Part shown: positions 43,707-59,922 of the stretch, in pieces | Layout of the letters: every line of letters starts with the position of its first letter | Numbering within the stretch: position 1 is the first letter of the stretch | Source: Methanoculleus sp. 7T | GTDB lineage: Archaea; Halobacteriota; Methanomicrobia; Methanomicrobiales; Methanoculleaceae | Direction of reading: 5' to 3' | Length of the DNA: 64,000 nt | Assembly: GCF_023195915.1 (NCBI RefSeq) | Contig: NZ_JALPRP010000001.1 | Coordinates: 1,736,001-1,800,000 of the forward strand | Made by a program: the position numbers and the translations under genes | The notes under the pieces: generated by a model | What the model was told of the DNA's origin: nothing | What the model saw: the letters and a program-made list of their open reading frames with translations, nothing else | Database searches by the model: none

Positions 43707-44789
43707 ATGGCGATCATTGAAGCACACAACATCAGGAAATCGTACGGCGACTTAGAGGTCCTGCACGACATCGACCTCTCGGTGCAGGAGGGAGAGATCC
43801 TCGGGCTCATCGGCCCGAGCGGCTCCGGGAAGAGCACGCTTCTCCGGATCCTCGACCTGATTGAGCCGCCGAGCGGCGGAGAACTCTCCGTCTTCGGCAT
43901 CGACACGGTCGAGGAGCGCGGTCGCTGGCTCGACCTCCGCCGCCGGATGGGGATGCTCTTCCAGAGGCCGATCGTCTTCAATGCATCGGTCTACGACAAC
44001 ATCGCGATGGGGCTGCGCTATCGGGGGGCTTCCGGCGACGAGATCGACCGGAGGGTGAAGGAGGCCCTCGAAGCCGTCGGGCTCTCCCGCTACATCAAGA
44101 GCAGGGCGACCGATCTCTCGGGCGGTGAGCAGCAGCGGGTGGCGTTATCGAGGGTGCTCGTGACCGACCCTGAGATCCTCTTCCTCGACGAGCCGACGGC
44201 GAACCTGGACCCGACGTCGACCGCTACCATCGAGGCGATCGTGGCGCGCCTGAACCGCGAGAAAGGGATAACCGTCCTGATCAGCACCCACGACCTTATG
44301 CAGGGGCAGCGGCTCGCCCACCGCGTCGCGGTGATGATCGAGGGGACGGTCGCCCAGGCTGGCTCGTCCCGTGAGGTCTTCCATGAGCCGAAAGACCCGA
44401 AGATCGCCCGGTTCGTGGGCGTCCAGAACATCATCCCCGGCCGGGTCGTCTCCCGGGAAGGAGGCCTCACCACGGTGGAGATGAAGGGGAGGCGGATGGT
44501 CTCGGCGACCCCGCCCCCGGCCGAGGAGGTGGCGGTGGTCATCCGGGGCGAGGACATCTCCCTGCACCGGAGGGAGCCCGGCTACGAGGAGGCGGAGAAT
44601 CTTTTTTCCGCTAGCATTACCAGTATCGAGCCTATGGCGCCGTTCGTGAACGTGACCGTGGACTGCGGGTGCGAACTGACCGCACTGGTGACCGCGAGGA
44701 GGGCGGAGAGCCTCGAACTTGAGATCGGTATGCAAGTCTGGGTCTCTCTCCCGGCGAGGGTGGTCCACCTGGTCCCTTGGGAGGTGTAA
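43707..44789 (+). CDS. tupC: tungstate ABC transporter ATPase TupC (system 1)
   Basis: The 360-residue ATPase with Walker A GPSGSGKSTLL (about 35-45), signature LSGGEQQRVALSR, Walker B FLDEPTANLD and H loop STHD. Residues about 240-360 form a C-terminal regulatory region ending in a TOBE/Mop-like domain (VTVDCGCELTALVTARRAE), which in related importers binds the oxyanion and inhibits transport. Confidence 0.92.
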   Translation: MAIIEAHNIRKSYGDLEVLHDIDLSVQEGEILGLIGPSGSGKSTLLRILDLIEPPSGGELSVFGIDTVEERGRWLDLRRRMGMLFQRPIVFNASVYDNIAMGLRYRGASGDEIDRRVKEALEAVGLSRYIKSRATDLSGGEQQRVALSRVLVTDPEILFLDEPTANLDPTSTATIEAIVARLNREKGITVLISTHDLMQGQRLAHRVAVMIEGTVAQAGSSREVFHEPKDPKIARFVGVQNIIPGRVVSREGGLTTVEMKGRRMVSATPPPAEEVAVVIRGEDISLHRREPGYEEAENLFSASITSIEPMAPFVNVTVDCGCELTALVTARRAESLELEIGMQVWVSLPARVVHLVPWEV

Positions 44790-44935: not shown

Positions 44936-46024
44936 ATGAAATCGTCTCGCATATGCATGTTGATCTCCCTCCTCGTCGCTGTCGTTCTGATCTGCGGCTG
45001 CACGGGGACGACAAACACCGATTCCGTGCCCGGTTCGGAGAACCTGACGTCGACTCCTGCCGCGACGGCGACCCCTGCCGAGGGCGTCCAAGTCAAGGTC
45101 TTCCACGCCGGAAGCCTGACCGGGCCGTTTGAGAAGGTAAAGGCGGCGTTTGAAGCGGAACACCCCGGCGTCACCGTGACCCTTGAACGCGGGGGCAGCG
45201 TCGATATCATCAAGAGGATTACCGGGAGCGGCGACTCTGCCGACGTTCTCGCCTCCGCCGACTACGCCCTCATCCCGAAGATGATGGTGCCGGAGCATGC
45301 CGACTGGTATCTCACGTTCGCGAAGAACCGGATGGTGCTCACCTACACGAACGAGAGCAAGTATGCCGGCGAGATCACCGCCGAGAACTGGTATGAGGTC
45401 CTCGGTCGCGACGGTGTCAGGTGGGGCTTCTCGGACCCGAACTCAGACCCCTGCGGCTACCGCACCCCGATGGTGATCCAACTCGCCGAGGGCTACTACG
45501 GGAACGACCGGATCTTTGAGGATCTCGTCGCGGCCCACAGCAACATCACCGCAACCGAAGAGAACGGCACCGTCACGATCCATGCCACCAATGCGGGCTC
45601 CGACGACACCGTACTCTTCATCAGGCCGAAGGCCGACGACCTCGTCAAGATGGTCCGGTCCGGCGACCTTGACTACGCCTGGGAGTACCGGAGCGTTGCG
45701 GTGCAGAACGACCTCAAGTTCATCGAACTCCCCGAAGCGATCGACCTCTCGTCGGTAGACTTCGCTGAGAACTACGCGACCGTCCAGACCGAGGCGAAGA
45801 AGGGCGACGGCACCACGCTCTACGCGGGCGCCCCGATCGTCTACGGCGTGACCGTCCCGAAGATCGCAGAGCACCCCGACCTTGGCGTCGAGTTCGTGGA
45901 GATGCTGGTCGGTGCCACCGGTCAGGAGATCCTCAACGCCGACGGCCAGCCCCCGATCGTGCCTGCGGGCGGCTACGGCAACGTTCCTGCCAGCCTGCAG
46001 CCGCTTGTTGCGGTAAAAGCCTGA
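44936..46024 (+). CDS. wtpA: molybdate/tungstate-binding protein WtpA, without its own permease
   Basis: The 362-residue lipoprotein (lipobox LICGC) carrying the WtpA opening KVFHAGSLTGPFEKV and the RGGSVDIIKRITG, SDPNSDPCGYR and YEWRSVAV-like (YAWEYRSVAV) blocks that set WtpA apart from ModA. WtpA proteins bind Mo or W in octahedral geometry with very high affinity. No wtpB or wtpC follows; the nearest unpaired candidates are the ModB/ModC proteins at 49-51 kb. It ends in a T7 run. Confidence 0.92.
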   Translation: MKSSRICMLISLLVAVVLICGCTGTTNTDSVPGSENLTSTPAATATPAEGVQVKVFHAGSLTGPFEKVKAAFEAEHPGVTVTLERGGSVDIIKRITGSGDSADVLASADYALIPKMMVPEHADWYLTFAKNRMVLTYTNESKYAGEITAENWYEVLGRDGVRWGFSDPNSDPCGYRTPMVIQLAEGYYGNDRIFEDLVAAHSNITATEENGTVTIHATNAGSDDTVLFIRPKADDLVKMVRSGDLDYAWEYRSVAVQNDLKFIELPEAIDLSSVDFAENYATVQTEAKKGDGTTLYAGAPIVYGVTVPKIAEHPDLGVEFVEMLVGATGQEILNADGQPPIVPAGGYGNVPASLQPLVAVKA

Positions 46025-46383: not shown

Positions 46384-47529
46384 CTAGGATACGGGTTTCT
46401 GCCCGCTCCTCTGCCTCTGTTCCCACCACTCGCGGGCGTAGGCGAGGATCATCCCGATGATGAACGCGAAGGTAAGGCCGATCGCAAGCGTGAGGACGGC
46501 GATGACCCCTGTGACCAGATACGACTCGGTCTTCGCGCTGTGTTTCCCGAGTTCGATCGCCACGAAGACGAGGAGCGCGCCGAAGACCCCGAACGGGATG
46601 AGGGTCAGCACCTCCGGCGGGGCGAAGGCGACGGCGAAAGTGAGGACGAAGAGGCCGGCAACGATGTTCGCCCCGCCGGTCCTCGCACCGAACCGGTACA
46701 TGGCGGCAAGCCCCCCGGCGCCGTGGCACATCGGGAACCCCCCGAGCGGCGTGGAGAGGAGGTTCATCGCGCCGATGGTCCGGGAGAGTTTGTCCGGGTC
46801 CACGCCCTTCTTCGGGAAGAGGTCGTAGGTGAGGAGCGATGTGGCGAGGATGGCGTTTGTCAGGGTGAGCGGTATCTGCGGGAGCGCGAGGTCCCAGGAA
46901 CCGGCGATGAAGTCGGCCGGTGCGGGGATGATGAGGGCGGGGAGAGGCATCAGGCGGAACGGCGGCATCCCCTGCGTCGCGATACCGGCGGCAAGCCCGA
47001 TTGCGAGGACGATCAGAGCGGAGATGTCCGGGACCCGGGTTCGCTGCGATGCGATGAAGAAGGCGACGATGATCCCGACGGAGACCGCCGCAAAGAGGGC
47101 GTCGGAGACGATATAGCCGAGCGACGTCTTCAGGAGGAGGAGCGCGAGCCCCGCCTGCACGCCCCGGACGACGCTTCTTGGTATCCGCTCCCCGATCCAG
47201 GTCATGCCGCCGACGAGCCCGAGCAGGAGGAAGAGCACGCCGACGACGATCCCGGAGGCCACGATCTCGCCGCCGGAGAGGCCTTCGGCGATGACGATGG
47301 CGCCGATCGCCTTCATCGGCTCGATGGGGATGGGAAGGCGGTAGTAGAACCCGGCGATGATGTACCACGCGGCGAGGAAGAGGAAGAAGTGGCTGACGTT
47401 CACATCCGGGCAGACGATGGCGACGCCGAGCAGGATGGGGAAGATGGTGCCGAAGTCGCCGACTGCTCCGGCGATCTCTTCGAGGTTAATCCTGATGCCG
47501 TTCCCCTTCTCCTCGGTGCTCTCAGCCAT
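46384..47529 (-). CDS. MOT1-family molybdate (sulfate) permease
   Basis: The 381-residue protein with about ten membrane segments. It has the MOT1 motifs GDFGTIFPILLG (residues 24-35), PIPIEPMKAIGA, and PMCHGAGGLAAMYRFGAR, which distinguish molybdate transporters of the SulP-related MOT1 group. It lies divergent from modA and within the Mo/W island, which supports molybdate over sulfate. ATG 47529 has GAGAGGA before it. Confidence 0.88.
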   Translation of the reverse strand: MAESTEEKGNGIRINLEEIAGAVGDFGTIFPILLGVAIVCPDVNVSHFFLFLAAWYIIAGFYYRLPIPIEPMKAIGAIVIAEGLSGGEIVASGIVVGVLFLLLGLVGGMTWIGERIPRSVVRGVQAGLALLLLKTSLGYIVSDALFAAVSVGIIVAFFIASQRTRVPDISALIVLAIGLAAGIATQGMPPFRLMPLPALIIPAPADFIAGSWDLALPQIPLTLTNAILATSLLTYDLFPKKGVDPDKLSRTIGAMNLLSTPLGGFPMCHGAGGLAAMYRFGARTGGANIVAGLFVLTFAVAFAPPEVLTLIPFGVFGALLVFVAIELGKHSAKTESYLVTGVIAVLTLAIGLTFAFIIGMILAYAREWWEQRQRSGQKPVS

Positions 47530-47642
47530 AGTTCCTCTCTGTCTTATGTCCCCTCTGCTTTTTGGAGGTTCTGGATGGGGCATCTCGGGGGTTGCCTCAT
47601 CTGGAAACGATATTCAATTAATTTATCCTGAATCTATATTGG

Positions 47643-47711: not shown

Positions 47712-48530
47712 ATGAAAGCGCATCTGCTTCTCATTATTGCACTGCTTGTTGCGGCAACCGCCGCTTTTACATGCGGATGTACCGGAACCACGGCCGATAC
47801 GCCAGAGGTTTCCGATACGGCAAAGCCCGAACTGCTCGTCTACTGCGGCGCGGGCATGCGGGAACCGATGGACGAGATCGCGACGGCCTTCACGAACGAG
47901 ACCGGCATCTCGATCAATTACATCTTCGGCGGGTCGAACACCCTCCTTACCCAGATGAACCTGACAAAGATGGGCGATGTCTACATGCCTGGCGCGACCG
48001 CCTACTTTGATGCGGCCCGTGACATGGGGCTGGTCGGAGAGGAGTCTCTTGTCGTCTACCATGTCCCGGTCATCGCCGTCCCGAAGGGCAATCCTGCCGG
48101 TATCGCGTCTCTCCAGGACCTGGCAAAACCTGGTGTGCGGGTGGCGCTCGGTGATAACCCCGGTGCTGCCATCGGGCAGCTGACCGATAAAGTCCTGGCG
48201 AAGAACAACCTCCTCGAGGACGTGGAGAAGAACGTCGTGACCCGCACCGGCACAGTGAACGAACTGCTGGTCTACATCTCCATGGGACAGGCTGACGCCG
48301 GCATCATCTGGGAGGACCTCTATGTGCCTGAGAAGATGGACCTCATCTACATCCCGAACACGGACAACCTGGTGAAGATCGTCCCCATCGGCGTGCTGAC
48401 ATCTTCCGAGCACCCCACTGAGGCTGAACAGTTCACCGCGTTCGTCGTCTCCGACGAAGGGAAGGCGATCTTTGCCCGGCACGGCTTCACCACCTATCCA
48501 AGTGACACCTACGCAAATGTCAGGCCCTGA
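47712..48530 (+). CDS. modA: molybdate ABC transporter substrate-binding protein ModA
   Basis: The 272-residue lipoprotein (lipobox FTCGC) with the ModA pattern LLVYCGAGMREPMDEIATAF, a GGSNTLLTQM oxyanion loop, LGDNPGAAIGQLT and MGQADAGIIWED. Distinct from WtpA and TupA in the island. First gene of modA-(trmO-like)-modB-modC. Confidence 0.9.
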   Translation: MKAHLLLIIALLVAATAAFTCGCTGTTADTPEVSDTAKPELLVYCGAGMREPMDEIATAFTNETGISINYIFGGSNTLLTQMNLTKMGDVYMPGATAYFDAARDMGLVGEESLVVYHVPVIAVPKGNPAGIASLQDLAKPGVRVALGDNPGAAIGQLTDKVLAKNNLLEDVEKNVVTRTGTVNELLVYISMGQADAGIIWEDLYVPEKMDLIYIPNTDNLVKIVPIGVLTSSEHPTEAEQFTAFVVSDEGKAIFARHGFTTYPSDTYANVRP

Positions 48531-48554: not shown

Positions 48555-49058
48555 ATGGAGACCACCTATCGTATAATCGGGACCATCCGCTCACCGTTCA
48601 CTGACCAGGATACTACCCCCGTCCAGAGCATCTTCTCTCCGGCGGAGGGGACAGTCGAGGTCTTTCCCGAGTACGCGGAAGGGTTGCAGGGGGTCGAGGG
48701 ATTCTCCCACATTATCCTCCTCTACCATTTCCACCAGGCAGACGGGTTCCGCCTGCTCGAGCGCCCGTTCGTCGACGGCAGCAGGGAGCGGGGGATCTTT
48801 GCCATACGGCATTTCAACCGCCCAAACCCGATTGGGATCTCCCTCGTCGAAGTCGCTTCCGTTGAGGGGAACACCGTCCGGGTCCGCGGGGTGGACGTGC
48901 TGGATGGCACACCGCTTCTTGACATCAAACCCTACGTCCGCCAGTTCGACCACCGTGATGACGTCAGAAGCGGTTGGGTCGACGCACGGCATATTGAGGA
49001 GGTGAAGATCCGGAGTTTCTCGCCAAAGGGTCTCCGGGATCATGAGGAATCTTCATGA
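48555..49058 (+). CDS. TrmO/TsaA-like (UPF0066) methyltransferase inside the mod operon
   Basis: The 167-residue protein of the YaeB/TrmO family, a beta-barrel SAM enzyme that in E. coli methylates t6A37 of tRNA-Thr. Seen: IGTIRSPF at the start, GFSHIILLYHFH, RHFNRPNPIGISLVEV and VLDGTPLLDIKPY, the family's conserved core. It is placed between modA and modB and coupled to modB by ATGA, suggesting a function tied to molybdate, perhaps in cofactor chemistry or regulation; that is inference. Confidence 0.88.
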   Translation: METTYRIIGTIRSPFTDQDTTPVQSIFSPAEGTVEVFPEYAEGLQGVEGFSHIILLYHFHQADGFRLLERPFVDGSRERGIFAIRHFNRPNPIGISLVEVASVEGNTVRVRGVDVLDGTPLLDIKPYVRQFDHRDDVRSGWVDARHIEEVKIRSFSPKGLRDHEESS

Positions 49059-49852
49059 AGCGGCGTAGTACTTCCCGTTTCCGGGTGGCGACCGTAACGG
49101 TCTCCCTTCTCATCACCGCCTTCATCGTGCTGGTCCTTCTCGGGGTGGTCACCCACTCCCCCCTCAATGTCCTCATCGAGTGTCTTCTCTCTGAAGAGAT
49201 CCGGTTTGCTGTCAGGCTCTCGATCCTTACCTCCGTTATCTCCACACTCCTCTGCATCCTCGTCGCTGTGCCGGTGGCGTATGCACTCGCCCGCTACACG
49301 TTCCCGGGAAAATCCCTGATGAACATGGTGATGGATATCCCGATGGCGCTCCCGCCGCTCGTGGCGGGTGTGGGGCTCCTCCTCTTCTTCGGCGTATCCC
49401 CGGTAGGAAAATCACTTGCTGCGGTGGGGCTCACCTTCGTCTTCACGCCGCTTGGGATCATCATGGCCCAGTTCTTCGTGAACCTGCCCTACATGCTCCG
49501 GGTGACCCGCTCGACGTTCCAGAGCGTCAATCCCCGCTACGAGTATGTGGCAAAGACGCTTGGGTGTACCGATGCGCAGGCCTTCTGGCGTGTCACGCTC
49601 CCCATGTCCTGGAACGGGCTCCTTGCCGGAGCGGTGATCACCTGGTCAAAGGGAATCGGGGAGTTCGGCGCTGCGCTGATGCTTGCCGGCGCAACCCGGA
49701 TGAAGACCGAGACGCTTCCGCTCTCGCTCTTCCTGAACATGTCCACCGGAAAACTCGAGGTCGGCATCTCTGCGGCGACGATACTCATCCTGATCTCGGT
49801 CATCTCGCTCTACGTCTTTGAGCGCTACGGCGGAGCCACACACGCCTACTAA
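49055..49852 (+). CDS. modB: molybdate ABC transporter permease ModB
   Basis: The 265-residue protein with about six membrane segments. The permease signature is KTLGCTDAQAFWRVTLPMSW near residue 170, followed by SKGIGEFGAALMLAG, strongly conserved in ModB/WtpB. ATGA overlap with the TrmO-like gene and an 11-base gap to modC. Confidence 0.92.
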   Translation: MKRRSTSRFRVATVTVSLLITAFIVLVLLGVVTHSPLNVLIECLLSEEIRFAVRLSILTSVISTLLCILVAVPVAYALARYTFPGKSLMNMVMDIPMALPPLVAGVGLLLFFGVSPVGKSLAAVGLTFVFTPLGIIMAQFFVNLPYMLRVTRSTFQSVNPRYEYVAKTLGCTDAQAFWRVTLPMSWNGLLAGAVITWSKGIGEFGAALMLAGATRMKTETLPLSLFLNMSTGKLEVGISAATILILISVISLYVFERYGGATHAY

Positions 49853-49863
49853 AGGGTATACCC

Positions 49864-50922
49864 ATGCTTATCATTGACTCTGTATCAAAAAATCTCGGGG
49901 AATTTGCGCTGACGGATGTCTCGCTCTCGGTTGGAGACGGTGAGTATTTCATCATCCTCGGCCCCACTGGAGCGGGAAAGACGATCCTCCTTGAGACAAT
50001 TGCGGGGATTTACAGCCCAGATGCGGGCAGGATCGTCCTGAATGACCGGGATATCACGGATGTGCCGGCTAAGGACCGGAACATCGGCATGGTCTACCAG
50101 GACTACATGCTCTTCCCGCACCTGACCGTTGAGGAGAACATCAGTTTCGGGCTGAAGTCCCGGCGGGCCGATTCTGACTTCATCCGCAGGAAAGTGCAGG
50201 AGAGCGCGGAACTCTTAAACATCGGCCACCTGCTCCACCGCTACCCGGGGACCCTCTCCGGCGGCGAGCAGCAGCGCACGGCGATTGCACGGGCGCTGGT
50301 GATGGAACCGGACGCATTGCTGCTGGATGAGCCGCTCTCGGCGCTGGACGTAAAGACACGCGAGAGTCTGCGTGGGGAACTCGCACGGATCCACGAGGCC
50401 ACCGGGACGACGATCATCCATATCACCCACAACTTCGAGGAGGTCTTCGACCTTGCCGACCGGGTGGCGGTCATGTACCAGGGCGGCGTTGTCCAGGTGG
50501 GGACACCGGAGGAGATCTTCAGAAAACCGAACTCTGATTTTGTGGCTGACTTTGTCGGGATGGAGAACCTCTTCTGCGGGGAGGGATCCCCTGACGGGAT
50601 TGTCACGGTGGAGGGCCTCCGGATACAGGTTGAGAACGGCATGTCCGGTCCGGTCTCCCTTGCAGTCCGGCCCGAGGATATCCACCTCTCGAAGACGGCG
50701 CTGCCGCAGAACGGGAAGAACATCCTCTCCGGCTGTATCCGGACGGTGCGGCAGACCGGGGGGCTGGTCCGCATCTGCGTCGATGCCGGGATCCCGGTCA
50801 TGGTGGTACTGACCCGGCAGGGGTTCGAGGAGGCCGGGGTAGGCTCTGGTGATGCTGTCTATCTTGCTTTCCGGCCATCAGCGGCCCATGTCTACCCTTC
50901 CGGTGCATCGGAAGGGGACTGA
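49864..50922 (+). CDS. modC: molybdate/tungstate ABC transporter ATPase ModC
   Basis: The 352-residue ATPase with Walker A GPTGAGKTILLE, signature LSGGEQQRTAIARAL, Walker B LLLDEPLSALD and H loop ITHN. The C-terminal part (about 230-352) is a TOBE/Mop-type regulatory domain. It could equally energise import from WtpA, since the lone wtpA lies 5 kb upstream and WtpC and ModC are close relatives. Confidence 0.92.
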   Translation: MLIIDSVSKNLGEFALTDVSLSVGDGEYFIILGPTGAGKTILLETIAGIYSPDAGRIVLNDRDITDVPAKDRNIGMVYQDYMLFPHLTVEENISFGLKSRRADSDFIRRKVQESAELLNIGHLLHRYPGTLSGGEQQRTAIARALVMEPDALLLDEPLSALDVKTRESLRGELARIHEATGTTIIHITHNFEEVFDLADRVAVMYQGGVVQVGTPEEIFRKPNSDFVADFVGMENLFCGEGSPDGIVTVEGLRIQVENGMSGPVSLAVRPEDIHLSKTALPQNGKNILSGCIRTVRQTGGLVRICVDAGIPVMVVLTRQGFEEAGVGSGDAVYLAFRPSAAHVYPSGASEGD

Positions 50923-52886: not shown

Positions 52887-53249
52887 TTACCTTTCCCCGC
52901 CCGGCGCACTCCTGCGTGCCTGCAGTGCCCGGAGGACCTCTGCGCCCAAGACCTCTTCCGCGCGCTCCCTGTAGCGCTCCGCCATGACCGCGAGGAGTTG
53001 CTCCGTCCCTGCCGCCGTGGTGGAGATGCCGACCCGCTCCTCCCGGTGGATCAGTCCGTCCCGTTCCATCGCCCCGAACCGGGGGAGGACGTAGTAGTGG
53101 GGGATACTGAGGTATTCTGCGAGTTTTCGGGTTGTAGGGAAACGTATGGAGATGCCGTCCGGAGAAAAACTGATGGTTACGCACCGGTCCTCCTCGAGGA
53201 GGATCCGGACTGCCGCCTCAAAGATATCGTCGTGCTCGTGTATGGACAT
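52887..53249 (-). CDS. small winged-helix DNA-binding protein
   Basis: The 120-residue protein with a helix-turn-helix at about residues 38-70 (TTRKLAEYLSIPHYYVLPRF), then the wing ERDGLIHREERVGISTT and a C-terminal helix. A natural candidate for regulator of surrounding Mo/W genes or of the MscS pair, but nothing in the sequence shows the target. Confidence 0.75.
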   Translation of the reverse strand: MSIHEHDDIFEAAVRILLEEDRCVTISFSPDGISIRFPTTRKLAEYLSIPHYYVLPRFGAMERDGLIHREERVGISTTAAGTEQLLAVMAERYRERAEEVLGAEVLRALQARRSAPGGER

Positions 53250-53298: not shown

Positions 53299-53532
53299 TT
53301 ACGCCTCTTCTTTCTTCATCTCGCCCCGCTCTTCTTCGGGCATCTCCTCGAGGTAGACGATCTCCGCCCCGACGTCCTTCGCAATCTGCTCGAGTTCGAC
53401 CTTCCTGAAGTGGGTGCTCTCCACCTTCACGTGCTTATTCTCGCCCTTCTCTTCAACGACTGCGACGACACGGAACCGCGGCTGTTTCACGCCTGTTCCT
53501 ACTTTTTGGCGCTCTCGCGCATAGATCTTCAT
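53299..53532 (-). CDS. small conserved hypothetical protein divergent from the Mo-storage gene
   Basis: A 77-residue basic-then-acidic protein (MKIYARERQKVGTG at the start, VVAVVEEKGENKHVKVES in the middle, ending EERGEMKKEEA). Family unknown to me. It has a near-ideal AGGAGGTGAT ribosome site eight bases before ATG 53532. It shares the 95-base divergent promoter region, with its two dyads, with the storage-protein gene, so the two are probably regulated together. Confidence 0.7.
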   Translation of the reverse strand: MKIYARERQKVGTGVKQPRFRVVAVVEEKGENKHVKVESTHFRKVELEQIAKDVGAEIVYLEEMPEEERGEMKKEEA

Positions 53533-53555
53533 CGGTTCATCACCTCCTAACCAAC

Positions 53556-53577
53556 TGGTATACCTGCTGATATACCA
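53556..53577. promoter_or_regulatory. candidate operator dyad in the storage-protein divergent promoter
   Basis: TGGTATA (53556-53562) and TATACCA (53571-53577) are exact inverted repeats with eight bases between. The dyad lies midway between divergent genes. Confidence 0.5.
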
Positions 53578-53627: not shown

Positions 53628-54434
53628 ATGACTGATCGAATCGAGTTAGGATCGAAACTGCGCGGCGAGAGCCTGGTCCGGCGGGGCCTGCTGCGAGAGA
53701 CTGCAAGCGTCCGGCAGATCAGGATCATGCCTGACCTGAACGTGGTCAAGATCGGCGGCCACGGCGTCATCGATTACGGCCGGAAGGTGATTTATCCGCT
53801 GGTCGAGGAGATCGGCGAGCTCTCCCGGGACCACAAGATCCTGGTCGCCACCGGCGGCGGCGCTCGGGTGCGGCACATCCTCGATGTCGGGATCGACCTC
53901 GGCATGCCGACCGGGGTGCTTGCGGAACTGGCGGGCAAGATCAGCGAGCAGAACGCGATCATGATGTCCCTCCTCTTCTCGAAGTACAACGGCGTCCGGA
54001 TCCACTCCGGGGATCTCCTGAACCTCCCGTCTCTCATATCGCTCGGGATGCTGCCGGTCGTGCAGGGCACCCCGCCCTACGGGCTCTACGAGCACCCGCC
54101 GAAACTCGGCAGCATCCCCCCGCACCGGACCGATACCGGCGCATTCCTGATGGCCGAAGTGGTGGGGGGGAAGAACTGCATCCTCGGAAAGAACGTGAAC
54201 GGCCTCTACACCGAAGACCCGTTCGCGAATCCCGACGCCGAGTTCATCGAGGAGATCACGGCCGACGAACTCCTCGAGATGAACATGGAGGATATGGTGC
54301 TTGAGCCCATGGCGGTCGAGCTGCTCCGGGACGCCGTCCACGTCAAAGAGATCAAGGTCGTGAACGCTCACGTGCCCGGGAACATCGCGAAAGCCGTCAA
54401 CGGCGAACGGGTAGGCACCCTGATCCGGGCCTGA
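53628..54434 (+). CDS. molybdenum storage protein (Mos)-like, amino acid kinase fold
   Basis: The 268-residue protein of the UMP-kinase-like fold. From memory it matches the MosA/MosB subunits of Azotobacter vinelandii, which pack polyoxomolybdate or tungstate clusters in a protein shell using ATP: PDLNVVKIGGHGVIDYGRK, VATGGGARVRHILDVG, GTPPYGL, IPPHRTDTGAFLMAEV, NVNGLYTEDP, and HVKEIKVVNAHVPGNIAKAVNG followed by ERVGTLI. A true UMP kinase would lack the IPPHRTDTGAF segment. Only one subunit gene is present, so a homo-oligomer is likely. Its placement among four Mo/W importers supports storage of Mo or W. Confidence 0.85.
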   Translation: MTDRIELGSKLRGESLVRRGLLRETASVRQIRIMPDLNVVKIGGHGVIDYGRKVIYPLVEEIGELSRDHKILVATGGGARVRHILDVGIDLGMPTGVLAELAGKISEQNAIMMSLLFSKYNGVRIHSGDLLNLPSLISLGMLPVVQGTPPYGLYEHPPKLGSIPPHRTDTGAFLMAEVVGGKNCILGKNVNGLYTEDPFANPDAEFIEEITADELLEMNMEDMVLEPMAVELLRDAVHVKEIKVVNAHVPGNIAKAVNGERVGTLIRA

Positions 54435-54515
54435 ACCCCCGGATCAACTATTTTTCATTAACCCGAGAGATGCCTTCATAAATTTTGTGTGCGGATCAGT
54501 ACAGCAAGCGATCCT

Positions 54516-55214
54516 ATGACCCTCTACCTTGGCATCGACGATACCGACACCCGCGAGTCCCGGGGAACCGGACGGCTCGCCCGCACGATTGCAGCAGAAC
54601 TTGCCCGGTCATATACGGTGACGGGAGTGACCCGACACCAACTCTTTGTCCACCCCTCCATACCGTACACCTCCCACAACAGCTGCGCGGTCATCCATAT
54701 CCGTGATGCTGGGAACGGGGCCGCGGCCGATGTTTTTGCGACGGCAAAGGAACTGATGCTCTCCGACTTCATCGAGGGGAGCGATCCCGGGATCTGCGTC
54801 GCCGCCGACCGGGAGATCGGAAGCGACCTCCGCCTCTTTGGGTCGAACGCGAAGAAGAGCGTCGTGACGCAGGAGCAGGCGCGCTCGCTCGCCCGGCAGG
54901 CGGGCATCCGCCTCGAAGGGCTCGGCGGCACCGAAGACGGCGTCATCGGCGCGCTCGCCGGTGTTGGGCTGGCCTCCTCCGGGAACGACGGCCGGTTCGT
55001 CCAGAAAGGAACGACCCGGGACCTCCGCGGCACCCAGACGGTCGCCGCAATCCTTTCCGCCGGCGTCGACCAGGTCATGACCCTCGACGGGACGGCGGTC
55101 GGCGAGGGCGCCGTGGCGCTGAAGAAGTTCCCAAAGCCTGCCTTCATCGGGGGAAAGGCGGTTCTCTTCATCGAGCCCGACGGCGAGATGTACCGCGATA
55201 TCGTGGTCGGGTGA
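54516..55214 (+). CDS. truncated TiaS-like protein (DDTD domain)
   Basis: The 232-residue protein starts LYLGIDDTDTRES, the N-terminal domain of archaeal tRNA-Ile2 agmatinylcytidine synthase, and later has IPYTSHNSCAVIHI and GTEDGVIGALAGVGLASSGN, in the same order as TiaS. The C-terminal OB and zinc-ribbon domains that hold the tRNA are absent (TiaS is about 420 residues). Such short paralogues occur in methanogens with unknown role; methylation of a small substrate is a guess. Start ATG 54516 lies 35 bases after a CATAAATT box. Confidence 0.75.
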   Translation: MTLYLGIDDTDTRESRGTGRLARTIAAELARSYTVTGVTRHQLFVHPSIPYTSHNSCAVIHIRDAGNGAAADVFATAKELMLSDFIEGSDPGICVAADREIGSDLRLFGSNAKKSVVTQEQARSLARQAGIRLEGLGGTEDGVIGALAGVGLASSGNDGRFVQKGTTRDLRGTQTVAAILSAGVDQVMTLDGTAVGEGAVALKKFPKPAFIGGKAVLFIEPDGEMYRDIVVG

Positions 55215-55338: not shown

Positions 55339-55384
55339 CTATCACATTTAATTATCTGAAGTCCGATACTTTCACGTGAGAGTT

Positions 55385-56317
55385 ATGAGCAAGCGAACCC
55401 TTTTCGCCGTTGCGACCGTCATGGTCGCTCTCCTGCTTATCTGCGGCTGTACCGGGACGACATCCGACCCAGGTACCGTCAGCACGGAGAAACAGCAGTT
55501 GCGTATCGCTACAACGACTAGTCTTGACGACACCAAACTTCTCGATCATCTCCGGACGATCTTTGAGGATAAGTACAACGCCGAAGTGCTGGTCGTCTCC
55601 GCCGGTACCGGCAAGGCGCTTGAGTACGGGCAGCGGGGCGACGTGGACGTCCTGATGGTGCACGACCGTGCACGCGAGGATACGTTCATCGCCGACGGCT
55701 ACGGGACCAACCGGCGTGTCTTTGCCTACAACTACTTCGTCCTCGTCGGACCCGAGTCCGACCCGGCAGGCGTCAAGGATATGAAGCCCGAAGAGGCATT
55801 CGCCACCATCCGGGAGAAAGGTATGGCCGGTGAGTCGAGCGTAGTCTTCGTCTCGCGCGGCGACGCCTCGGGCACGCACTCCAAGGAGAAGGCTATCTGG
55901 AAGGGAGCCGGATTCAACTACTCTGCCGACGTGCAGGGCTCCGGCGACTGGTACCTCGAAGCCGGGAAGGGCATGGGTGCTACCCTGATGATGGCCAATG
56001 AGAAACAGGCCTACACCCTCTCCGACATCGGGACGTTCCTCGCCTACAAGGGCGACCTGCAGCTCGTGCCGGTCGTGAGCGAGGGCGACATCCTGCTCAA
56101 CGTCTACTGCGCCATGCAGATCAACCCCGAGAAGTACCCCGACATCAACAGCACGATCGCCAAGGACTGGATCAACTTCATGATCTCCGACGATGTGCAG
56201 AAGGAGATCGCCTCCTTCGGTGTCGACAAGTACGGCCAGCCGCTCTTCTACGCCGCCCAGAACGACTGGGAGAAGATTGGCGTGACCAAGGCTGAAGTGA
56301 CGGACCCGATTCAGTGA
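55385..56317 (+). CDS. tupA: tungstate ABC transporter substrate-binding protein TupA (copy 3)
   Basis: The 310-residue lipoprotein (lipobox LICGC, as in WtpA) with IATTTSLDDTKLLD, GKALEYGQRGDVDVLMVH and FVSRGDASGTHSKEK. It is more distant from copies 1 and 2: the motif aspartate lies in GQRGDVDVL and the cysteine tail is missing. It begins the second complete system tupA-tupB-tupC. Confidence 0.92.
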   Translation: MSKRTLFAVATVMVALLLICGCTGTTSDPGTVSTEKQQLRIATTTSLDDTKLLDHLRTIFEDKYNAEVLVVSAGTGKALEYGQRGDVDVLMVHDRAREDTFIADGYGTNRRVFAYNYFVLVGPESDPAGVKDMKPEEAFATIREKGMAGESSVVFVSRGDASGTHSKEKAIWKGAGFNYSADVQGSGDWYLEAGKGMGATLMMANEKQAYTLSDIGTFLAYKGDLQLVPVVSEGDILLNVYCAMQINPEKYPDINSTIAKDWINFMISDDVQKEIASFGVDKYGQPLFYAAQNDWEKIGVTKAEVTDPIQ

Positions 56318-56381: not shown

Positions 56382-57083
56382 ATGTACGAGATCATCGAGG
56401 GCTTCATGGAGGCGGTCGAGCTCATCATCACGCTCGACCCCGATGTGATGGCCATCTCAGCGAGAAGCATCATCATCTCATTCACCTCTACGGTGTTTGC
56501 CACCCTGATCGCCGTCCCGCTCGGCGCCGCGATCAACTTCGGCAGGTTCCCCGGAAGGAAGAGCCTTATCAACCTGATCCAGACCCTCTACGCGCTGCCG
56601 ACGGTCATCGTCGGGCTCCTCCTCTTCCTGCTCTTATCCCGCGTCGGGCCGTTCGGATTCTTGCGGCTGCTCTTCACCCCGACCGCGATGATCATCGCGC
56701 AGACGGTCCTCATCCTGCCGATCATGACCGGCCTGACGATATCGGCGCTCTCGGGGGTCGACCCGGTCATCAGGGATACCCTCCACTCGCTCGGGGCGAC
56801 GCGCCTTCAGTTTCTCATAAACATCATGAGAGAGGCAAGGTTCGCGATCCTCGCGACCGTCGCGGTCGGATTCGGGCGGGCGATATCAGAGGTCGGGGCG
56901 GCGATCCTCGTCGGCGGCAACATCATGGCGTCGTCGTTCATGAGTTCGACCCGGGTGCTGACGACGGCGATATCCCTCGAGACCTCGATGGGGAACATCC
57001 CCAAGTCCATCGCGCTCGGTATCATCCTTCTCGCAATCGCCCTCGGCGTCAATCTCGCAATAACCGCGGTGCAGCACAGGTAG
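56382..57083 (+). CDS. tupB: tungstate ABC transporter permease TupB (system 2)
   Basis: The 233-residue permease with five to six membrane segments; ATPase-contact loop in LGATRLQFLINIMREAR, then VGFGRAISEVGAAILVGGNI. Similar along its full length to system 1. Ribosome site AGGAGAG. tupC follows by five bases. Confidence 0.92.
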   Translation: MYEIIEGFMEAVELIITLDPDVMAISARSIIISFTSTVFATLIAVPLGAAINFGRFPGRKSLINLIQTLYALPTVIVGLLLFLLLSRVGPFGFLRLLFTPTAMIIAQTVLILPIMTGLTISALSGVDPVIRDTLHSLGATRLQFLINIMREARFAILATVAVGFGRAISEVGAAILVGGNIMASSFMSSTRVLTTAISLETSMGNIPKSIALGIILLAIALGVNLAITAVQHR

Positions 57084-57088
57084 AACCC

Positions 57089-58234
57089 ATGATTGAACTA
57101 GATAGCGTCTCAAAACGGTTCGGCGATACGGTGGTCCTCGCCGGCGTCACCGCGCGGATCAAAGCGGGAGAGATCTTTGCGATCATCGGGCCGAGCGGGG
57201 CCGGGAAGTCGACCCTGCTGCGCCTCATCGACCTTCTCGACACCCCGACGGGGGGAGCGATCCGGGTCAGCGGCATCGACATCCACGCAGAGAAGGAGCG
57301 GAGCCTCCGGGTCCGCCGGAAGATGGGGATGGTCTTCCAGAAACCCGCCGTCTTCAACACGACGGTCTCCGAGAACATCGCCGTCGGTCTCCGGTTCAGG
57401 GGGGCGGATGAGCGGATGATCCGGGAGAGGGTCGAGGACGCCCTCGAGATGGTCGGTCTTGCCGGCTACGGGGAGCGGAGGGCGCGGACGCTCTCGGGAG
57501 GGGAGATGCAACGGGTGGCTCTCGCGCGGACGATGGTGACCGAGCCTCTGGTCCTGCTGATGGACGAGCCGACCGCAAACCTCGACCCGGTCTCGGTGGA
57601 GAAGATCGAGGAGTTGGTGCTCCGGATCAACCGCGACCTCGGCACGACGATCGTGATCTCGACCCACGACATGTATCAGGGGCAGCGGCTCGCCCACCGG
57701 ATCGGCGTTCTGATGAACGGAGCGTTTACGCAGGTGGGAACGCCGCGAGAGGTCTTCACCCTGCCCGCAACCTGGGAGGTCGCCCGGTTCGTCGGGATCG
57801 AGAACATCATCGAGGGTGTCGTCGTGGCCGGGCGGAACGGCACCTCGTCCGTCGATGCCGGCGGCGTTCTGGTCAGGGCCGCGTCATCGTTCGGCCGGGG
57901 CGAAGAAGTCTGTCTCTGTATCAGGTCTGAGGACATGCGGATCGCCCCGGCGGCCGGAGGAAAGGCCGCGCTCAACGGGAACACCCTTGCCGGGACCGTG
58001 GCCGCCATCACGCCGCGCGGCCCGTACAGCAAGGTGACGGTCGACTGCGGGTTTATGCTCTCGTCGGTCCTCTCGTGGAAGGCGGTGGACGAACTGGGCA
58101 TCCGGGAAGGGAGCCGGGTCTCGGTCTCGTTCGCGCCGGAGTCGGTCCACGTCGTCAGGGCGGGAGTGACGGCCGTCAACCCAGCCGCCCCCCGGCGTGA
58201 GAGGGGGAAAAATACTCCTTTTTTGCCAGAGTGA
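57089..58234 (+). CDS. tupC: tungstate ABC transporter ATPase TupC (system 2)
   Basis: The 381-residue ATPase with GPSGAGKSTLLR, LSGGEMQRVALAR, LMDEPTANLD and STHD, and a C-terminal TOBE/Mop domain (VTVDCGFMLSSVL). The signature Q is M-shifted (GGEMQR), unlike system 1. The start is ATG 57089: the longer open frame in this phase runs through tupB out of frame. Confidence 0.92.
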   Translation: MIELDSVSKRFGDTVVLAGVTARIKAGEIFAIIGPSGAGKSTLLRLIDLLDTPTGGAIRVSGIDIHAEKERSLRVRRKMGMVFQKPAVFNTTVSENIAVGLRFRGADERMIRERVEDALEMVGLAGYGERRARTLSGGEMQRVALARTMVTEPLVLLMDEPTANLDPVSVEKIEELVLRINRDLGTTIVISTHDMYQGQRLAHRIGVLMNGAFTQVGTPREVFTLPATWEVARFVGIENIIEGVVVAGRNGTSSVDAGGVLVRAASSFGRGEEVCLCIRSEDMRIAPAAGGKAALNGNTLAGTVAAITPRGPYSKVTVDCGFMLSSVLSWKAVDELGIREGSRVSVSFAPESVHVVRAGVTAVNPAAPRRERGKNTPFLPE

Positions 58235-59256: not shown

Positions 59257-59922
59257 TTAGACCTGGATGCCAGCCCTGGCAAGGGCGCCCTTGATGGCGG
59301 CAAGCTCCTTTTTGATCTCTTTGAATTCGTCGTCAAGGTACTTCCCGGTATCACTTCGGAGCCCTGCAATCTCCTCTTTCGTCTCAATCCCAACTTGGAG
59401 CAGTTGGTCCTGCTTATCCAACATCTGGTCCTGCTTATCCAGCATCTGGTCTTGCTTATCCAGCATCTGGTCCTGCTTATCCAGCATCTGGTCTTGCTTA
59501 TCCAGCATCTGGTCTTGCTTATCCAGCATCTGGTCTTGCTTATCCAGCATCTGGTCCTGCTTCTTCAAACTCCGTTCAGAATTCTCCAGCGTCTGGTACA
59601 TGATCGTGCCGGCAAAATCAACCCGCTCAAACAATTCCTCCTGAAGATCTCCGCGGATGATCTCAAAGGTCGTGAACTCTCCGGTTGCCTCCTGCCATTC
59701 GACGGTGAATGATTTGACCGCGATTGGATAGCGGACGATATTGATTGCGTTGATAAGTGCGCGAAGATCCTCCTCGCTCCCCTCTGCGACGATCTCGACC
59801 TCTCCGGTGTCGAGGTTCTTCACGTATCCGGAGATATCCTTGTTAAACGTCTCTCTGTAGACGTGCTCCCGGAACCCGACCCTCTGGACCCGCCCTGTTG
59901 CAACGGCAGAAAATCGTTTCAT
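59257..59922 (-). CDS. acylphosphatase domain fused to a repeat-built coiled coil
   Basis: The first 90 residues are an acylphosphatase with its catalytic pair, R18 (in GRVQRVGFREHV) and N36 (in GYVKNLDTGE). Residues about 90-115 link to seven exact heptads KQDQMLD plus one altered copy (KQDQLLQ), about residues 120-176, then a short helical tail (IKKELAAIKGALARAG). The heptads would form a parallel coiled coil with M/L at core positions, giving an oligomeric enzyme. Free acylphosphatases are only about 90 residues. The fusion is unusual; the enzyme part appears intact. Confidence 0.88.
   Translation of the reverse strand: MKRFSAVATGRVQRVGFREHVYRETFNKDISGYVKNLDTGEVEIVAEGSEEDLRALINAINIVRYPIAVKSFTVEWQEATGEFTTFEIIRGDLQEELFERVDFAGTIMYQTLENSERSLKKQDQMLDKQDQMLDKQDQMLDKQDQMLDKQDQMLDKQDQMLDKQDQMLDKQDQLLQVGIETKEEIAGLRSDTGKYLDDEFKEIKKELAAIKGALARAGIQV
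59401..59562. repeat. 21-bp tandem repeat coding for heptads
   Basis: Seven full 21-base units (59416-59562) plus one partial, reading ATCCAGCATCTGGTCYTGCTT on the plus strand. Units differ only at one silent C/T site and at one position in the unit nearest 59416, so expansion is recent. Unit number may vary between strains. Confidence 0.92.

Follow-up and report, generated by a model that had tools for sequence, protein, structure and literature searches.

A One-Gene Relative of the Molybdenum Storage Protein and a Small Partner Protein in Methanoculleus and Other Anaerobes: A Putative Store of Tungstate or Molybdate

A stretch of 64,000 nucleotides from the genome of Methanoculleus sp. 7T (the window) contains a gene whose product is a full-length relative of MosB and MosA, the two subunits of the molybdenum storage protein (MoSto) of Azotobacter vinelandii, and is closer to them than to any kinase. 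It is the sole MoSto copy of this 2.6-Mb genome and lies next to the gene of a 77-residue protein, whose family was previously unrecognized and is new in the present analysis. The homology and the structure of the module are firm. We consider it fairly probable (about 60%) that the MoSto relative forms a homo-oligomeric, ATP-using cage that stores molybdenum (Mo) or tungsten (W), is accompanied by the small partner and a regulator and serves molybdopterin enzymes. No account of an archaeal MoSto was found in the literature searched. The features of the locus are listed in Table 1.

Table 1. Features of the MoSto locus and its surroundings, in window positions.
Feature	Position	Strand	Basis or remark
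WtpC-like ABC ATPase with TOBE domain	43707..44789	+	Profile matches
WtpA tungstate/molybdate-binding protein	44936..46024	+	Over cut-off with two models
MOT1-type molybdate transporter	46384..47583	-	PF16983, 5.8e-53
ModA-like molybdate-binding protein	47712..48530	+	TIGR01256 over cut-off
Molybdate-type ABC permease (ModB)	49055..49852	+	TIGR01581 over cut-off
ModC/WtpC-like ABC ATPase	49864..50922	+	428.6 bits (cut-off 440)
Winged-helix DNA-binding protein of 120 aa; probably a regulator	52887..53249	-	Predicted model, locus conservation
Partner protein, 77 aa, divergent from the MoSto gene	53299..53532 (with stop)	-	Family without known match
Two overlapping operator-like palindromes, TATACCANNTGGTATA type	53547..53574	+	Upstream of the MoSto gene
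One-subunit MoSto relative	53628..54434	+	268 aa, amino-acid-kinase fold
Stand-alone TiaS-TCKD-like protein of 241 aa with a DDTD motif	54489..55214	+	Profile matches
TupA-like tungstate-binding protein	55376..56317	+	NF041772, 188 bits (equivalog cut-off, 400, not reached)
TupB-like permease	56382..57083	+	Profile match
TupC-like ABC ATPase with TOBE domain	57089..58234	+	Profile matches

In a phmmer search of the PDB, the window protein matched MosB at 3.7e-63 across residues 7-268 and MosA at 1e-47 over nearly the full length, whereas the best UMP kinase matched at 2.7e-10 and only in the C-terminal part (residues 163-266). The Pfam label was AA_kinase and nothing finer, and no NCBIfam model reached its cut-off. 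The scores of the UMP kinase models TIGR02076 and TIGR02075 were 64.6 and 50.1 bits against cut-offs of 158.05 and 243.9, respectively. The AlphaFold model of the window protein (pLDDT 81.6, pTM 0.81) possesses the MoSto subunit fold. It was nearer to the MoSto chains (Z 32-34) than to the UMP kinases (Z of about 25 or less), and Foldseek gave 1e-27 for MoSto versus 2e-14 for the UMP kinases. Identity as a UMP kinase was rejected on the basis of the profile scores, the fold and the tree described below. The same evidence, together with the single copy in the whole genome, bears out the sequence-only reading, which had taken the gene for an archaeal homolog of MoSto made of one kind of subunit. 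That reading had also named three segments as specific to MosA/MosB, of which two stood: IPPHRTDTGAF resembles IPPHRADTGAF of MosA, and the C-terminal tail VVNAHVPGNIAKA resembles VVNGLVPGNLTRA of MosB. The third, NVNGLYTEDP, is generic to the amino-acid-kinase fold, and its counterpart in UMP kinase is TKVDGVYTADP.

The window protein and MosA/MosB (PDB 2OGX, 4F6T, 6GU5) share full-length homology, the amino-acid-kinase fold, an N-terminal arm, an insertion loop and the ATP-site lysine. The lysine, K41 in the window protein, corresponds to K42 of MosB and K45 of MosA and was kept in 102 of 102 sequences. R80, R82, H83 and D169 were kept in the archaeal group. The insertion loop, PPY..P..IPPHR.D, was present in all MoSto sequences and in the archaeal group and absent from the UMP kinases (PyrH). 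Although UMP kinases share the fold and the general ATP-binding residues, the conserved Asp of their ADxMG/ADELG motif is replaced in the window protein, which is also set apart from PyrH by the MoSto-only loop and the N-terminal arm. In two genomes with two MoSto genes, G460 and G933 (loci L156, L159, L162, and L163), one subunit has no ATP-site lysine: the position is Gly or Ser, in VGIGG and VSIGG. The loss of the lysine from one subunit suggests a possible division of labor between subunits.

The MosA cluster ligands were all absent from the window protein: a gap, Leu136 and Gly152 are found at the positions of Glu129, His140 (presumably the residue of the three-histidine tungsten site on the three-fold axis) and His156, respectively. 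In the MosA literature, His156 and Glu129 are covalent ligands of octamolybdate, and a three-histidine tungsten site is also described. Thus, the expectation that the protein would fall outside the UMP kinases and keep its cluster pocket was upheld in the former part and failed in the latter for these three ligands. MosB is likewise without equivalents of Glu129, His140 and His156, so that their absence does not rule out storage. Within the loop, E155 was invariant (102/102) and H156 was found in 73/102 sequences; that this pair might substitute for the MosA ligands is a guess. Given that neither a second subunit nor the MosA ligands were found, the window protein is a one-subunit, MoSto-related variant rather than MosAB itself.

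The maximum-likelihood tree (70 rows) placed every MoSto row, including that of the window protein, beyond one branch with a length of 2.92 and a support of 93/97, and the UMP kinases were grouped apart (99/80), as the sequence-only reading would predict. An AU test of the window protein and the UMP kinases as one clade gave a p of 0.054; this constraint can be satisfied by kinases placed on the end branch of the window protein, and the value therefore speaks to the root and not to membership. The two-gene sequences, including MosA and MosB, formed one group (95/91) that was nested among the one-gene forms. With a root on the kinase side, this suggests that the one-gene state may be older than the two-gene state.

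The family, most of whose carriers have a single gene, is common in Methanomicrobiales and also occurs in certain Asgard archaea and in Geobacter-type and other Desulfobacterota. A MoSto relative was carried by 67 of 393 genomes of the phylum, most of them Methanomicrobiales, and the closest locus, from Methanoculleus UBA303, was 94% identical. One family of Methanomicrobiales possessed two tandem copies, which were 82-85% identical within a genome. Relatives with identities of 64-69% were found in Methanocellales, Sifarchaeum/Borrarchaeum, Geobacter, Geomonas, Pelobacter and Anaeromyxobacter, with one copy per genome wherever the genome was scanned. The Desulfobacterota also contained more distant one-gene forms, with identities of 39-47%, and two genes in three genomes. 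The two-gene form was further found in one genome of the Anaeromyxobacter phylum and on Azospirillum plasmids.

The partner gene, which the sequence-only reading had overlooked, sits between the winged-helix gene and the MoSto gene. Its 77 codons are fewer than the length cut of the first list of open reading frames, and it surfaced as a conserved minus-strand reading frame when the regions upstream of the MoSto genes were aligned. In an alignment of 35 family members, R6, R8, K10, P18, H41 and E46 were invariant, and residues 1-63 form a basic core with a pI of 9. Profile scans of the family against Pfam, NCBIfam and the PDB gave chance matches only. At the locus level, where the counts include some genes fetched twice, the partner was near MoSto in 119/125 archaeal-type loci and 18/18 distant one-gene loci of Desulfobacterota versus 0/14 two-gene and 0/36 control loci; no partner was found on plasmids. 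Whole-genome scans, with a single count per genome, placed the partner in all 58 MoSto-positive and none of the 20 MoSto-negative genomes of Methanomicrobiales. Elsewhere, all 24 one-gene carriers had it, and it was absent from the 6 two-gene records and the 35 non-carriers. Combined, 82 of 82 genomes with one-gene MoSto contained the partner, versus 0 of 6 two-gene records and 0 of 55 MoSto-negative genomes. The two genes were 31-274 bp from each other in 54 of the 58 Methanomicrobiales carriers and apart in four, and the genomes with tandem MoSto genes (loci L034, L035, L036, and L037, all of one family of Methanomicrobiales) had two partner copies. The small protein probably has a structural or a loading role for the one-gene MoSto. 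At G332:C1:954012-954649, the MoSto match is shortened and contains an in-frame TGA, yet the partner gene is intact.

The module of MoSto and partner is completed by the winged-helix gene, the palindrome and the TiaS-TCKD-like gene. The winged-helix gene was found in 89/125 archaeal-type MoSto loci; the distant bacterial loci had none. Its predicted model (pLDDT 89) has DtxR/IdeR as the closest folds; the fold search returned nothing under an E of 1e-3, and no named family fitted the protein in sequence and fold searches. The TATACCANNTGGTATA-type palindrome occurs at two sites in the window versus 0.20 expected. Of 70 archaeal loci, 46 had a ACCANNTGGT palindrome in the 150 bp upstream of MoSto, versus 0 of 10 bacterial loci; the chance expectation is 0.002 per locus. 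The winged-helix protein probably acts via the TATACCANNTGGTATA-type site. A genome-wide regulon of this palindrome was rejected: at up to two mismatches, the genome contained three sites versus five for the reversed control. The TiaS-TCKD-like gene lay beside MoSto in 51 archaeal-type loci and in 8/13 and 2/5 of distant bacterial loci; no two-gene locus had it. The TiaS-TCKD-like proteins of the window (54489-55214, plus strand) and of L147:229-984, L136:2598-3317 and L110:5227-5970 showed a weak likeness to methanogenesis marker 11.

The Mo/W transport setting that the sequence-only reading had described was confirmed, with WtpA, ModA, ModB/ModC, TupA/TupB, WtpC-like ATPases and MOT1 around the gene (Table 1). 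A TrmO tRNA methyltransferase gene (48555-49058) lies between those of ModA and ModB, and likewise in many related loci. Further downstream, the minus strand encodes an acylphosphatase-domain protein (59257-59922) with about eight copies of the seven-residue repeat MLDKQDQ. In the fetched flanks of 80 loci, relatives of TupA and TupB were found in 44 and 45 loci, respectively, and gene order and strand varied between lineages. In a locus of a Geobacter MAG (L082), the genes are arranged as TupABC-MoeA-MoaC-MogA-MoSto; another Geobacter MAG locus (L064) shows this arrangement too, although the contig end cuts off its beginning.

No NifD over the cut-off was found in the window genome, and a link to nitrogenase was rejected for it. 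Among Methanomicrobiales, NifD was found in 8/58 MoSto carriers versus 8/20 non-carriers (Fisher p 0.022, which ignores relatedness). The window genome encodes three strong molybdopterin oxidoreductases. Given that this genome and most carriers are without NifD, and given the TupABC-MoeA-MoaC-MogA-MoSto run of Geobacter, tungsten/pterin enzymes rather than nitrogenase are indicated, and pterin enzymes are the likely customers of any stored metal. The linkage to Tup is an uptake context and does not identify the cargo; judged only by the gene neighborhood, tungstate is the more likely cargo here.

Different from the neighboring mosA and mosB genes of A. vinelandii, the window form is a single gene, as it is in most carriers, and its linkage is with tungstate uptake genes rather than with nif. 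The one-gene form is also accompanied by the small partner family, which the two-gene genomes lack. Another possible comparison is Tub of Eubacterium limosum, a tungsten-binding TOBE protein that holds eight tungstate oxyanions per hexamer (PMC11980592). Tub is similar in being an intracellular tungstate store of an anaerobe with Tup uptake, a role that the window protein may share; however, Tub is a single TOBE domain (PMC11980592), and the window protein has the amino-acid-kinase fold.

The amino-acid-kinase fold, the kept ATP-site residues and a Pfam assignment to AA_kinase only would also be expected of a UMP kinase-type enzyme acting on a nucleotide or another small molecule and located near Mo/W genes by chance. 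This explanation is very improbable, as the score with the UMP kinase model is far under its cut-off, the MosB match is strong, the genome has another kinase (L004) that groups with the UMP kinases, and the linkage to Tup and the partner is too consistent for chance. A relative of MoSto that has lost storage and now, in an ATP-dependent way, either senses Mo/W or hands the metal on, with the partner as its output or delivery component, would account for the missing MosA ligands and for a conserved regulator, partner and TiaS-TCKD-like gene that exceed the needs of a passive store. We regard it as unlikely, however, given the strong conservation of the insertion loop, the ATP site and E155/H156.

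The small protein could also be an integral subunit of a mixed cage, in which case the archaeal form would be a new hetero-complex and not a homo-oligomer. The exact co-occurrence, the matched copy number in genomes with tandem duplications, the short distance between the genes in most genomes and the lack of the partner in two-gene systems are consistent with such a complex. Co-occurrence is not contact, however, and the genes are apart in four genomes; we consider a mixed cage somewhat unlikely.

In the preferred reading, the window protein would assemble with itself into an ATP-binding cage that would use ATP to load and retain oxide clusters, of tungstate more likely than of molybdate in this setting. 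The stored metal would then buffer between uptake by the Tup, Wtp and Mod ABC transporters and insertion into molybdopterin enzymes, for example formate and formylmethanofuran dehydrogenases, and not nitrogenase. The protein of about 70 residues would be a dedicated structural or loading partner, and the winged-helix regulator would control the module from the upstream palindrome. A wider reading, which we put forward tentatively as a possibility, is that anaerobic archaea and bacteria possess an unrecognized W/Mo storage particle, in which a single MoSto-type subunit has an obligatory partner of the new family and, in archaea, the winged-helix regulator, and which serves pterin enzymes. The two-subunit MoSto of Azotobacter would then be derived and would have dropped the partner.

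If storage is true, it would account for a reserve of scarce W/Mo in organisms that need both for CO2 reduction. The results also suggest that metal storage in the MoSto fold may predate its use in nitrogen fixation. The one-to-one match with an uncharacterized small protein is exact and offers an immediate testable lead, and the pairing of a one-gene MoSto with this partner suggests an overlooked metal-storage module in anaerobes.
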